From Candidatus Methanoflexus mossambicus (GTDB lineage Archaea > Methanobacteriota > Methanobacteria > Methanobacteriales > Methanobacteriaceae): a DNA stretch of 32,637 nucleotides. Both the position numbers and the translations under genes were made by a program. The notes under the pieces were generated by a model, which made no database searches, had not been told where the DNA came from, and was given only the letters and a program-made list of their open reading frames with translations. Shown piece by piece: positions 15,499 through 20,092 of this stretch (its first letter is position 1; every line of letters starts with the position of its first letter). Location of the stretch: positions 1-32,637 of the forward strand of contig JAISIT010000144.1 in assembly GCA_031261915.1 (NCBI GenBank). Direction: 5' to 3'.

Positions 15499-15530
15499 TA
15501 TTTATATATTATGTTTAATAAAAATATTAT

Positions 15531-15544
15531 ATAACAATTGTTAT
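15531..15544. promoter_or_regulatory. Palindrome ATAACAATTGTTAT, distal copy
   Basis: A perfect 14-bp palindrome, identical to the copy at 15796-15809, and not seen elsewhere in this window. Probable binding site for a dimeric regulator of the nitrogenase-like cluster or of the divergent DUF3788 gene. Confidence 0.65.
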
Positions 15545-15760
15545 AAATTATAAAATAATTTTTATTCTAATAAAATTAAAATATTTTTTTAAATTTTTTT
15601 AAATCAATTTATATTTATTTTAGATTTAAACTTATATTTATTTAGATTTATTTATATTATAGATTTAAAGCATATTTAAAGTATATTTAAAGTATATTAA
15701 AGTCTATAAAGCATACTAAATTATATTTAAAATAATAATAGCTTTATATTTCTATGTGTA

Positions 15761-15768: not shown

Positions 15769-15795
15769 TATTTTAAATAAATCTTAAAATTAAAT

Positions 15796-15809
15796 ATAAC
15801 AATTGTTAT
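15796..15809. promoter_or_regulatory. Palindrome ATAACAATTGTTAT, proximal copy (candidate operator)
   Basis: The same perfect 14-bp palindrome, between the TATA box and the ribosome binding site (AGAGGT at 15831-15836). A protein bound here would block RNA polymerase, as expected of a repressor operator. The sequence differs from the GGAA-N6-TTCC operator described for NrpR in methanococci. Confidence 0.7.
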
Positions 15810-15842
15810 GTTTTTAATTAATTATTTTAAAGAGGTAGAAAT

Positions 15843-16712
15843 TTGACAAAAATAAAAGAAATAGCCATATATGGAAAAGGTGGAATAGGAAAGTCCACTA
15901 CAACGTCAAACATTAGTGCAGCATTATCATACGAGGGCTACAATGTAATGCAGATTGGATGTGACCCTAAAAGTGATTCAACTAATACATTAACAGGTGG
16001 AAAATCTATACCAACCGTGCTTGAGTCACTAAGAAAAGGAAGGGGCGCAGTTGAAGTAGAAGATGTGATATTTGAAGGTTATAATGGAATTCACTGTATT
16101 GAAGCTGGAGGTCCTGAACCAGGAGTAGGATGTGCTGGAAGAGGAATAATCACAGCAGTAGAGTTTTTAAAACAGGAAAATGTATTTGAAGAATATGCTC
16201 CTGATGTTGTATTATACGATGTTCTTGGGGATGTTGTATGTGGAGGATTTGCAATGCCAATAAGAGAAGGAGTGGCAGACCAAGTTTATACAGTATCCTC
16301 TGCAGATTTCATGGCTATTTATGCTGCTAATAATTTATTTAAAGGTATTAAAAAATATTCAACTGGAGGTGGAGCATTATTTAGTGGAGTCATTGCAAAT
16401 TCTATAAGTTTTTCAGCGCAAAAAGATATTTTAAATGATTTTACAAAACAAACTGAAAGTACAATTGCTGGATTTGTACCAAGATCCCTTGCAGTCACTC
16501 AAGCAGAACTATCAGGTAAAACAACAATCGAAGCAGACCCTGACAGTGAACAAGCAGAAGTTTATAAAAAATTAGCCAATGATATTTATAAAAATAAGGT
16601 TGAATATGTGCCTTCACCTTTAGAAAGTGATGAACTAAAAGATTGGGCTGCATCATGGTCAGACAAGCTTATTGAAATGAAAAAACAAGAAGAAGGTGAC
16701 TTTAAAATTTAA
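15843..16712 (+). CDS. NifH-like reductase component (H of nitrogenase-like HDK cluster)
   Basis: A 289-residue ATP-dependent iron-sulfur reductase that should pass electrons to the downstream D-K complex. Walker A GKGGIGKST is at 11-19, the switch motif is DVLGDVVCGGF, and the ligands of the inter-subunit 4Fe-4S cluster are Cys97 (GGPEPGVGCAGRG) and Cys133. Arg100 matches the ADP-ribosylation site of NifH. IGCDPKSDST is the style of group IV and other nitrogenase-like H proteins (CfbC, MarH) as well as NifH. The start is TTG at 15843 with AGAGGT 6 nt before it. The partners downstream argue against CfbC, which pairs with CfbD alone. Confidence 0.93.
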   Translation: MTKIKEIAIYGKGGIGKSTTTSNISAALSYEGYNVMQIGCDPKSDSTNTLTGGKSIPTVLESLRKGRGAVEVEDVIFEGYNGIHCIEAGGPEPGVGCAGRGIITAVEFLKQENVFEEYAPDVVLYDVLGDVVCGGFAMPIREGVADQVYTVSSADFMAIYAANNLFKGIKKYSTGGGALFSGVIANSISFSAQKDILNDFTKQTESTIAGFVPRSLAVTQAELSGKTTIEADPDSEQAEVYKKLANDIYKNKVEYVPSPLESDELKDWAASWSDKLIEMKKQEEGDFKI

Positions 16713-16740
16713 ACCCAATATTAATAACATATTGAATTAT

Positions 16741-16848
16741 AATATTAAATGAATATTAAATGAATATTAAATGAATATTAAATGAATATTAAATGAATAT
16801 TAAATGAATATTAAATGAATATTAAATGAATATTAAATGAATATTAAA
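16741..16848. repeat. 11-bp tandem repeat, nine units plus a partial
   Basis: AATATTAAATG repeated nine times without change (16741-16839) and then a partial unit. The period is one helical turn and each unit carries the palindrome AATATT. It fills the gap between the H and D genes; related AAAAGAATATT strings continue to about 16890. Confidence 0.95.
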
Positions 16849-16930
16849 AAAAATTAAAAGTGCATATAAAAGAATATTAAAAGAATATTAAAAATATTTG
16901 AAATATTTAAAACAAATTTAAGGTAATAAA

Positions 16931-18469
16931 ATGTCAAAAAATAAATATTCAGAAGATTATATTGTAAATCTTGAAAAAAATACATGCCCTACACGTGAAC
17001 AACGTGCAAATGGAACCAATGTCTATTTTGGAAAAGCAACTGAACTTCTTGAAGATGCGAAAAAAGGAAATTTAAGATGTACGGAACGAGGATTTCAACA
17101 ATCTGGAGGTTGTATTTTAAATTTTTATCTTTCAGTGAGAGTTTCAACAATCAGAGATGCAGCCATTATATTTAATGGTCCTGTTGGTTGTTCTCATGCA
17201 GCATTAAGTTATAAAGAGTTATATGGTGCAATTCCAGAATCTTTAGGAAAACCAGCTAAATACAACCTAAATTGGCTTACAACAAACTTAGGTGAAGAAG
17301 ATGTTGTATTTGGTGCTAAAGATAAACTTATTGAAGCTATTAAAGAAGCAGAAAAAAGATACAATCCAAAAGCTATTTTTATTTTAACTACATGTGTTAC
17401 AGGAATCATTGGAGAAGATATTGAATCTGCTGTAAATGAAATACAACCAGATATAAATGCAAGAATTGTTCCAATACATTGTGAAGGTGTAAGATCTAAG
17501 ATTATGCAAACAGGATACGATGCATTTTGGCATGGAGTATTAAAATATCTAGTTAAAAAACCAGAAAAGAAACAAAAAGATTTAGTTAACATAGCGAGTA
17601 TGTTATCATATGCATGGCAAGACAGGATTGAAATAGAACGTCTACTTGGAAAATTAGGTCTTAAAGTAAATTGGATTCCAGAATTTGCAAGTGTTGAAGA
17701 CTTCGAACAACTTGGAGAAGCAGCTTTAACTGCACCAATTTGTCCAACCTACACAGATTATATCTCAAGAGGACTCCAACAACATTTTGATGTCCCTTAT
17801 TTCATGTATCCATCTCCTATTGGCATACAAAATACTGATGAATGGCTTAGAGCAATAGCTAAGCATACTGGAAAAGAAGAAGAAGTTGAAAAACTTATAG
17901 CCGAAGAACATGAAAAATGGGTTCCTAAAATGAAAGAGATTAGAGATAAATTTAAAGATCTTGAAATTGAAAGAGGAGGAAAAAAGATTGATGTTTTAGG
18001 TTCACTTGGACAAGGACGGCTTGTTACTCAATTACCATATTTTGATGAATTAGGAGTCAAATCTTCTTCTGCAATGGCTCAGGATTTTGATAATATCTTA
18101 GTTGATGAATTAGAAGAGGTTATTGATAAAGTTGGAGATTTTAATGTAATGGTTAATACTTTCCAAGCTGCAGAACAACTTCATATCACTGAAAAAACAA
18201 AACCAGATATGGCTTTAACTTGTCCTTTCCAAGGAGGAGCTTGGAAGCGTGAAGGTTCTGTTTCAAGACTCCATTCATTAAGAGGAGATCCTAGAAAGTG
18301 GAGTTCACAGGCAGGATATGCTGGTGCAATAGCTTATGGAAACTTCTTACTACAAGCACTTAAAAATGAATCATTACAAAGACTTTCAAAGGAGAATACT
18401 GGAACTGCTGTTAAAAAATGGTATTTAGAACAAGATGATCCTTTATACTTTGCTGAAAAAGGAAAATAA
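16931..18469 (+). CDS. NifD-like catalytic subunit of a nitrogenase-like reductase
   Basis: A 512-residue nitrogenase component 1 alpha-type protein. Cys61 (QQSGGC), Cys87 (GPVGCSHA) and Cys155 (LTTCVTGIIGEDIE) match the P-cluster ligands Cys62/88/154 of Azotobacter NifD. Cys271 (TAPICPTYTDY) and His448 (SRLHSLRGD) align with the FeMo-cofactor ligands Cys275 and His442. In the segment matching NifD 183-196 (here CEGVRSKIMQTGYD) the positions of Gln191 and His195 are Met192 and Tyr196, so the N2-active-site histidine is missing. CfbD lacks a FeMo-type cofactor, so this is a different branch. AGGTAA precedes the ATG. The substrate is unknown; a carbon-sulfur substrate is one option. Confidence 0.9.
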   Translation: MSKNKYSEDYIVNLEKNTCPTREQRANGTNVYFGKATELLEDAKKGNLRCTERGFQQSGGCILNFYLSVRVSTIRDAAIIFNGPVGCSHAALSYKELYGAIPESLGKPAKYNLNWLTTNLGEEDVVFGAKDKLIEAIKEAEKRYNPKAIFILTTCVTGIIGEDIESAVNEIQPDINARIVPIHCEGVRSKIMQTGYDAFWHGVLKYLVKKPEKKQKDLVNIASMLSYAWQDRIEIERLLGKLGLKVNWIPEFASVEDFEQLGEAALTAPICPTYTDYISRGLQQHFDVPYFMYPSPIGIQNTDEWLRAIAKHTGKEEEVEKLIAEEHEKWVPKMKEIRDKFKDLEIERGGKKIDVLGSLGQGRLVTQLPYFDELGVKSSSAMAQDFDNILVDELEEVIDKVGDFNVMVNTFQAAEQLHITEKTKPDMALTCPFQGGAWKREGSVSRLHSLRGDPRKWSSQAGYAGAIAYGNFLLQALKNESLQRLSKENTGTAVKKWYLEQDDPLYFAEKGK

Positions 18470-18692
18470 ATAGAATAAATAAAATAAACGATTAAATAAT
18501 GTTTTGTTTAATTTATATTTAAATTGACATAATAATTTAGATTAATAATAATAATTTTATAATTATTTATTATTATAACTTTTAATAATTAATATTTTAA
18601 TAATTTTTATTTTTTATAATTTTTATATAAATATTTTTTATGAAATTATTTTTAATAATATTATTAATTTAATAAAAATTAAATGAAGCTAT

Positions 18693-18702
18693 TAAATATA
18701 AA
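18693..18702 (+). promoter_or_regulatory. Possible TATA box of the nifK-like gene
   Basis: TAAATATAAA about 44-53 bp before the ATG at 18746, inside a 276-bp gap that is long for genes of one complex. The K gene may have its own promoter. Confidence 0.3.
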
Positions 18703-18745
18703 ATTCTAATTAAATTATTGATAATTACATAAAAAGAGGACTAAA

Positions 18746-20092
18746 ATGAGTAAGAACAAATCAAAAGAATATATAGATGAATCAAGATCGCCAAGGATTG
18801 TAGAAGCTCCACGATATGGATGTACTTTATCTGGAGCATATGAAGCTGCTGTTGGATTAAATGAAGGTGTTCCAATTCTTCATTCAGGTTCAGGATGCGG
18901 TATGAGTCAGTTATTTGGTGCTAATTACGGAGGAGGACAAAATGCTCCTGGAGATTATGGGGGATCATCAACGCCATGTTCATGTTTAGTTGAAGAGCAT
19001 GTTATCTTTGGAGGAGAAGAAAAATTAAGAAAATTAATTGATTCAACTATAAAAATCTCAACAGGAGAATTTTTCACTGTTATATCTGGATGTGTCCCAT
19101 CTCTTATTGGAGATGATGTTGATGCAGTAGTTGGTGAATTTAGAGATAAAGCACCAATTATCCATGTAAATGCTCCTGGTTTTAAAGGAAATTCCTTTGA
19201 AGGATATGAATTATTTTTTGAAGCACTTATAGACCAATATTTAAAACCTGCAACTGAAAAAAGAAAAAGATTGGTTAATATATTAGGTGTTGTTCCATTT
19301 CAACATATATTTTGGAAAGGAGAACTCAAAGCTATAAAAGACTTACTTGCAAAATTTGATATTGAAGCTAATGTCTTATTTGGAGAGTTTAACACAGTTG
19401 AAAACATTGAAAAGATTCCAGCTGCAGAATACAATATTGTTTTATCTCCATGGGTAGGCCATAGAGCGGCCAAAAAACTTGAGGAAGCATTTAAAACTCC
19501 TTATGTAAGTTTTCCTGGTTTGCCAACAGGACCTATTCAGACTTCAAAATTTTTAAATAAAATAGCTGAAATACTTCCAGTTGATAAAGAAAAAGTTAAT
19601 GAATTTATAAAAAATGAAAAAAGAAGAGCATATCGTATGATTGAATATGTAGGAGATCTTCTTCAATTTGATGTTCCAAATGTTTATTTTGGAGTCGTAG
19701 CTGACTCAAATACTGCAATAAGCATCACAAGATACTTAACTGATGAAGTTGGTCAACTTCCAGATATTGTAATAATCACTGATAATCCCCCTAAAGAATT
19801 TAGGGAGAATATAGTTGAAGCTATAACAAGTAGTGAAGAAATCCAATTTACTCCAGATATTGTTTTTGAAATTGATTCTTATAAAATAAGTCAAATTTTA
19901 AAAGATAGACCATTTTTAAACCTCTATGCAAGCTCACTTGAATCAACCATAACTGATGAATTAGAAACTACCCATGTGACTGTTTCTTTCCCTTCATTTA
20001 ACAGAGCAGTTTTAGTAGACCACTATGTTGGTTTCGATGGAGGATTAAGATTAATTGAAGATCTGTTTTATGATAAAGCTGGTCCTTTATAA
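18746..20092 (+). CDS. NifK-like subunit of a nitrogenase-like reductase
   Basis: A 448-residue component 1 beta-type protein. Cys26 (RYGCTLSGAYEA), Cys51 (HSGSGCG) and Cys116 (VISGCVPSLIGDD) match P-cluster ligands Cys70/95/153 of Azotobacter NifK; Cys78 and Cys80 (PCSC) are extra. It lacks the long N-terminal extension of NifK from Mo-nitrogenase, which fits nitrogenase-like enzymes and Vnf/Anf-type K. Together with the D protein it should form an alpha2-beta2 complex with P-clusters. AGAGGA precedes the ATG. It is followed by a T-rich terminator-like stretch and the convergent GXGXG gene. Confidence 0.9.
   Translation: MSKNKSKEYIDESRSPRIVEAPRYGCTLSGAYEAAVGLNEGVPILHSGSGCGMSQLFGANYGGGQNAPGDYGGSSTPCSCLVEEHVIFGGEEKLRKLIDSTIKISTGEFFTVISGCVPSLIGDDVDAVVGEFRDKAPIIHVNAPGFKGNSFEGYELFFEALIDQYLKPATEKRKRLVNILGVVPFQHIFWKGELKAIKDLLAKFDIEANVLFGEFNTVENIEKIPAAEYNIVLSPWVGHRAAKKLEEAFKTPYVSFPGLPTGPIQTSKFLNKIAEILPVDKEKVNEFIKNEKRRAYRMIEYVGDLLQFDVPNVYFGVVADSNTAISITRYLTDEVGQLPDIVIITDNPPKEFRENIVEAITSSEEIQFTPDIVFEIDSYKISQILKDRPFLNLYASSLESTITDELETTHVTVSFPSFNRAVLVDHYVGFDGGLRLIEDLFYDKAGPL

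Follow-up and report, generated by a model that had tools for sequence, protein, structure and literature searches.

Methylthio-alkane reductase (MAR), the MarHDK enzyme of Rhodospirillum rubrum (PDB 9fmg/9d9u; PMC12552129), holds its [Fe8S9C] cluster through Cys270 and His429, the latter beside Arg428 in a MAR-specific loop, and lines its pocket with His194, Trp195, Phe199 and His375 (PMC12552129). The isethionate reductase IsrBHDK of Rhodobacter capsulatus, a group IV HDK enzyme of sulfur assimilation with an SsuABC transporter, has a D subunit with one P-cluster cysteine and without equivalents of Cys275 and His442 (PMC11423573). Group IV-A, or NfaHDK (Endomicrobium proavitum, Paenibacillus riograndensis, Heliophilum NflDK1; PMC9147875, PMC10418091), is described with both cofactor ligands, without NifEN, and as clustering with NifB, NifX, MetY and MtaA-type methyltransferases, and an association of its bacterial HDK genes with sulfur genes was noted earlier (PMC10418091). 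The Nfa group has also been predicted to hold ligands for N2 reduction, 15N2 uptake has been reported for E. proavitum with only Nfa genes (PMC9147875), and its group IV-A homologue is claimed to fix N2 (PMC9147875, PMC11257099). The function of group IV-A, nitrogen fixation versus sulfur mobilisation, is thus unsettled, and nifH surveys pick up its genes.

The window analysed here, a stretch of 32,637 nucleotides, is contig C39 of genome G000, the host genome, from the gut methanogen Candidatus Methanoflexus mossambicus (G, L and C label genomes, loci and contigs). It carries an HDK operon whose enzyme group is already known by sequence, probably as IV-A/Nfa and with conflicting functional claims; we compare it with that group, to which its clade probably belongs, by published descriptions, and bacterial clade members have the same companion genes. 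The window set shares with MarHDK the fold, the subunit plan, the six P-cluster cysteines, an equivalent of Cys270, the loss of the N2-site residues and probably a NifB-type cluster, but its D subunit forms a clade of its own, a NifD-type His448 replaces the Arg428-His429 of MAR loop I, and no dedicated marB lies beside the operon, NifB being elsewhere in the genome. It resembles IsrBHDK as a group IV HDK system with links to sulfur assimilation and an SsuABC transporter, whereas window D has all the ligands that IsrD lacks. With the Mo-nitrogenase NifHDK, represented by the nif operon of G013, it shares the P-cluster and cofactor anchor residues, and differs from it in an identity of only ~25%, a separate clade, the NifEN beside the nif genes, a different operator and the loss of His195 and Gln191. 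The features are as follows.

15530..15545, no strand: distal predicted operator, the perfect palindrome TATAACAATTGTTATA, whose 12-bp core is found before sulfur genes of related genomes
15795..15810, no strand: proximal predicted operator, TATAACAATTGTTATG, core at 15797-15808, 34 bp before the H start codon
15843..16712, + strand: H, 289 aa, TTG start, Fe-protein-like ATPase/reductase with Cys97 and Cys133 for the shared [4Fe-4S] cluster
16931..18469, + strand: D, 512 aa, catalytic subunit with P-cluster Cys61/87/155, cofactor Cys271 and probably His448, and Met192/Tyr196
18746..20092, + strand: K, 448 aa, partner subunit with P-cluster Cys26/51/116

Kinship and active site of the enzyme

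All three reading frames are intact and run in the same direction (15843-20092, +). H belongs to the NifH family (PF00142, E 1e-100) and D and K to nitrogenase component 1 (PF00148, E 2e-71 and 3e-68); H scores 1.3 bits below the NCBIfam cut-off of NifH, and D and K fall hundreds of bits under those of NifD, NifK, NifE, NifN, VnfD, AnfD and BchN/B. The gap between H and D (16741-16892) is mostly an 11-bp tandem repeat, AATATTAAATG, in ~14 copies. By sequence the best PDB match of each subunit is MAR, with E 2e-121 for H against MarH (9fmg_D; 2e-85 against NifH) and 1e-75 for K against MarK, and the modelled fold of D reaches a TM of 0.81 to MAR (9fmg_A) and ~0.62-0.70 to nitrogenases, so that among solved structures MAR is the closest in both respects, with nitrogenase far behind. 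In the D tree the window protein sits in its own clade of 24 rows (support 99/99), separate from MarD (100/99) and from NifD/VnfD/NifE (98/98). This clade spans archaea (Methanobacteriaceae, Methanosarcina, Methanothrix, Methanospirillum, Methanoperedens) and bacteria (Geobacteraceae, Myxococcota, Acidobacteriota, Chloroflexota, Sporomusaceae). The K tree, from which MarK itself was left out, agrees, with the partners of MAR-type D as a separate clade (100/99); grouping with bona fide NifDK, one of the two outcomes that would have refuted the first-pass annotation, is seen in neither tree.

That annotation had placed the metal ligands of all three subunits and the replacement of the N2-site residues, and alignment bears it out: Cys97/Cys133 of H, Cys61/87/155 and Cys271 of D and Cys26/51/116 of K match the ligand positions of the MAR subunits, and Gln191 and His195 of NifD correspond to Met192 and Tyr196, positions held across the clade by Met/Val/Ile and by an invariant Tyr. 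His448, which it had proposed as the second cofactor ligand, lies in an R-x-H-[SA] motif whose histidine is aligned by the clade profile with the FeMo-cofactor histidine of NifD (1mio), and this histidine occurs in all clade members and in the divergent L112, L114 and L124. The structure model of D, which was run partly to place His448, succeeded for the fold and failed for this residue, as loop 434-449 is of very low confidence (pLDDT < 50); His448 is thus probably a cofactor ligand as judged from sequence alone. At the place of MAR Arg428-His429 window D has Cys431-Pro432, at His194/Trp195 it has Ile-Met (Leu-Val in many other clade members), at Phe199 a Tyr, and at His375 the Gln384/Asp385 region, the histidine being lost. 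The predicted pocket of window D is therefore neither a MAR pocket nor an N2 pocket, and as Arg428-His429, His194/Trp195 and His375 are absent, MAR chemistry is not simply transferable to this enzyme.

Several related sets were met in other loci. Window-type and MAR-type (Arg-His) DK pairs lie close together in one locus in L083, L092, L096 and L113, which suggests different substrates for the two, and L086 holds two window-type sets. The D proteins of L112, L114 and L124 carry the loop signature [CA]P-F-x-G ... H and are placed by the tree outside the clade of 24 rows. Another D type of group IV (L087:3320-4849, L042:3909-5402, L112:12039-13511) has neither the Arg-His of MAR nor the Cys-Pro...His of the window and apparently offers no second cofactor ligand in these positions. 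In G130 (L042:3939-8657) two K genes follow a single D (~35%), and one of the two is window-type (52%) and lacks an adjoining D of its own. The Methanosarcina homologues L118:8001-9517 and L109:8001-10205 are otherwise good matches to D with apparently disrupted frames, from assembly error or decay.

A palindromic operator and the genes behind it

The perfect palindrome TAACAATTGTTA occurs exactly at 15532 and 15797 of the window, both times before the H gene, and the flanks lengthen this core to TATAACAATTGTTATA. We used the exact 12-bp core alone, because in the host genome the 16-bp pattern, searched with two mismatches allowed, did not outnumber its reversed control (33 versus 60 copies); exact TAACAATTGTTA has 71 copies in ten genomes, against 15 for the reversed control. 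In 21 of 27 family loci it lies at most 450 bp upstream of the gene that opens the operon, and in 2 more it does so with one mismatch, for both gene orders, HDK and DKH; three of the four members of genus g12 have no site before the operon. Among 56 sites read in six genomes (G033, G009, G019, G013, G055, G000), 8 precede the HDK operon, 19 precede genes for MetY, CysK, CysS, SsuA, MoeB/ThiF, ThiI, LarE or DUF39, 7 precede a GMC-type oxidoreductase and 15 precede other genes, while no gene begins in range of the other 7, which for two of them reflects a D start placed too far upstream in the gene calls of G033. The five exact copies of the host genome stand before the HDK operon (two), CysS and the GMC gene (one each), the remaining copy lying beside an AIR-carboxylase-type (LarB-like) and an acetyltransferase gene. 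Sulfur-gene sites are present in G019 as well, a genome that has no HDK operon. This distribution suggests that TATAACAATTGTTATA marks an archaeal regulon for sulfur that includes CysK, MetY, CysS, ThiI, LarE, MoeB/ThiF, SsuA and DUF39 (methanogenesis marker 16), the last of which acts in homocysteine synthesis.

Nine regions around nif genes contain no exact copy of TAACAATTGTTA. Just upstream of nifH in G013 lies GGAAAACGGTTTCC, of the form GGAAN6TTCC, the known form of the NrpR site, which is absent from all 27 HDK loci. Of the new evidence on function this regulatory link is the strongest: as the operator stands before HDK and sulfur genes and not before nif genes, we conclude that in this family the HDK operon is wired to sulfur, not nitrogen.

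Gene neighbourhood and genome content

In the window the operon has neither a transporter gene nor a sulfur gene beside it, and the SsuABC set of the host is on another contig (C213). In the close relatives L045, L059, L064 and L121 an ABC transporter whose binding protein is of the SsuA/NMT1 type directly follows the operon, and the complete genome G013 has just two SsuA-family genes, both within ~7 kb of the operon. Among 51 loci of at least 9 kb, 29 have ABC transporter genes, and genes for NifX, NifB, MetY-type and MtaA-type methyltransferase proteins are recurrent companions. Clade operons adjoin SsuA-type ABC transporters, NifB, NifX and MetY across phyla, and annotated plasmids of Chlorohelix and Treponema carry similar companion genes. 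Binding proteins of the SsuA/NMT1 type are used for nitrate, cyanate and thiamine precursors as well. In two loci the transporter cassette beside HDK ends with a small Cys/His-rich protein that has a hydrophobic segment at its N terminus (L045:16708-17016, without a family match, and L061:10700-10948).

The host genome is a draft of 3.07 Mb (94% complete, 8% contaminated), and its content was read from family and pattern searches, which in a draft cannot prove absence. These searches, proposed in the first-pass annotation, found a stand-alone NifB of archaeal length (C202), a separate CfbD (C69; TIGR03282, 538 bits) and, as the second NifH-like gene, CfbC (C170; NF033200, 433 bits), so that the other refuting outcome, D as the genome's only CfbD, is not seen either; NifDK, NifEN and any component-1 gene beyond D, K and CfbD were not found in the draft. 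Seven operon-carrying relatives (96-99% complete) likewise yielded only D, K and CfbD, and neither NifDK nor NifEN. All ten genomes checked have NifB, two of them lacking the HDK operon, as expected if its role is in methyl-CoM reductase activation (PMC12176620). In genus g12 two members have, besides a copy elsewhere, a second nifB directly adjoining the DKH operon (G109:C2:11343-12164, G124:C59:80318-81151). G013 has the HDK operon together with a full nif operon, and the HDK operon is kept in vertebrate-gut lineages that are reported to have lost nif (PMC13135261).

The window set was checked against several known identities. MarHDK has the same six P-cluster cysteines and the Cys270 equivalent, but window D falls outside the MarD clade and Arg428-His429, Trp195 and His375 are missing. 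The others were rejected: for a canonical Mo, V or Fe nitrogenase, Tyr196/Met192 stand in place of His195/Gln191, D lies outside the NifD/VnfD clade and NifEN was not found. CfbCD of F430 synthesis is encoded elsewhere (the real CfbD on C69, CfbC on C170) and the window set has a K subunit; IsrHDK does not fit a D that keeps all P-cluster cysteines and the Cys275/His442 equivalents, and a NifEN-like scaffold was rejected on the D tree, ligand residues and genome content.

Function of the enzyme

The model that most reasonably accounts for these observations, to which we assign a probability of about 0.72, is that of a two-component nitrogenase-like reductase for sulfur acquisition, regulated by sulfur, which would use an [Fe8S9C] cluster to cleave C-S bonds of imported organosulfur; the substrate and cofactor we infer. 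Under sulfur limitation a putative regulator would release the operator, in the direction of regulation that we infer. NifB, already in methanogens for methyl-CoM reductase activation, would supply the [Fe8S9C] cluster, which would be inserted into D at Cys271/His448 without NifEN, Mo or homocitrate. The Fe-protein dimer of H (H2) would deliver ATP-driven electrons through the D/K P-cluster to this cluster, which would reductively cleave the C-S bond of an organosulfur compound brought in by an SsuABC-type transporter, and the freed sulfur would enter assimilation through CysK, MetY or DUF39. We know of no biochemistry for this clade. The simplest mechanism to propose is that a NifB-derived cluster cleaves C-S bonds, since MAR does so and Isr, of the same group, has been proposed to. 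The transporter type favours sulfonates, and the MetY neighbours would fit thioethers also. The first-pass annotation, which had suggested a metal-cofactor reductase with a non-N2 substrate, possibly a thioether used as sulfur source, is well supported in its general part, the sulfur-source role gaining strong independent support from the common operator and neighbouring genes; a thioether is no more than a candidate substrate, the neighbouring transporters being SsuA-type and the MAR-specific residues absent.

A special case of this explanation is a methylthio-alkane reductase in function, acting on the MarHDK substrates 2-methylthioethanol, dimethyl sulfide and ethyl methyl sulfide. The closeness of MAR in sequence and fold, the MAR-type DK beside clade members in four loci and the MetY neighbours all speak for it, but the two enzymes form separate clades, every MAR hallmark residue is missing, and their presence side by side in one locus suggests different substrates; we regard this as unlikely. 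Still less probable is a sulfur-regulated reductase without C-S cleavage, for instance one that reduces inorganic or nitrogen-containing compounds or delivers electrons for sulfur cofactors: thio-transfer genes (LarE, ThiI, MoeB/ThiF) and the GMC oxidoreductase in the regulon would suit it, as would the breadth of the transporter family, whereas the closest characterised homologues are C-S cleavers (MAR and, as proposed, Isr within group IV) and the MetY, CysK and SsuA neighbours fit an organosulfur source. We find it very improbable that the operon encodes a group IV-A (Nfa-type) nitrogenase reducing N2 with an Fe-only cofactor, as claimed for E. proavitum. Such an enzyme would explain why all P-cluster ligands, the cofactor Cys and the NifD-type His are kept, and Nfa ligands are predicted to be fit for N2 in a group with reported 15N2 uptake (PMC9147875); however, His195 and Gln191 are replaced, NifEN was not found, the operator is of the sulfur-gene and not the nif-operon type, and the operon both persists in lineages reported nif-less (PMC13135261) and, in G013, occurs alongside a full nif operon.

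A more specific form of the sulfur-acquisition model, which we hold only tentatively, is that the clade constitutes a kind of enzyme of its own, the third built on an [Fe8S9C] cluster, in which the His ligand is of the NifD type and N2-reducing residues are lacking, and which would desulfonate organosulfonates in methanogens through the NifB supply of methyl-CoM reductase activation; were this true, the supposed group IV-A 'nitrogenase' would be a sulfur enzyme. In the open-licence literature we found no report of this HDK system in Methanobrevibacter, and the methanogen branch, the comparison with the MAR active site, the nif-less distribution and the operator link to sulfur genes appear new relative to the literature searched. 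An operator that the operon shares with cysteine and homocysteine genes, and that is absent from nif operons of the same family, makes the choice between nitrogen fixation and sulfur mobilisation directly testable in culturable methanogens such as Methanobrevibacter cuticularis and M. filiformis. If the model holds, termite-gut and rumen methanogens would obtain sulfur from organic compounds by means of a nitrogenase-type cofactor needed anyway for methane formation. Furthermore, the operator gives access to what appears to be an undescribed archaeal regulon for sulfur, in which a GMC/flavoprotein-like oxidoreductase (L138:3370-4578, L150:3161-4402, L045:3973-5247) recurs and lies near HDK in G013.
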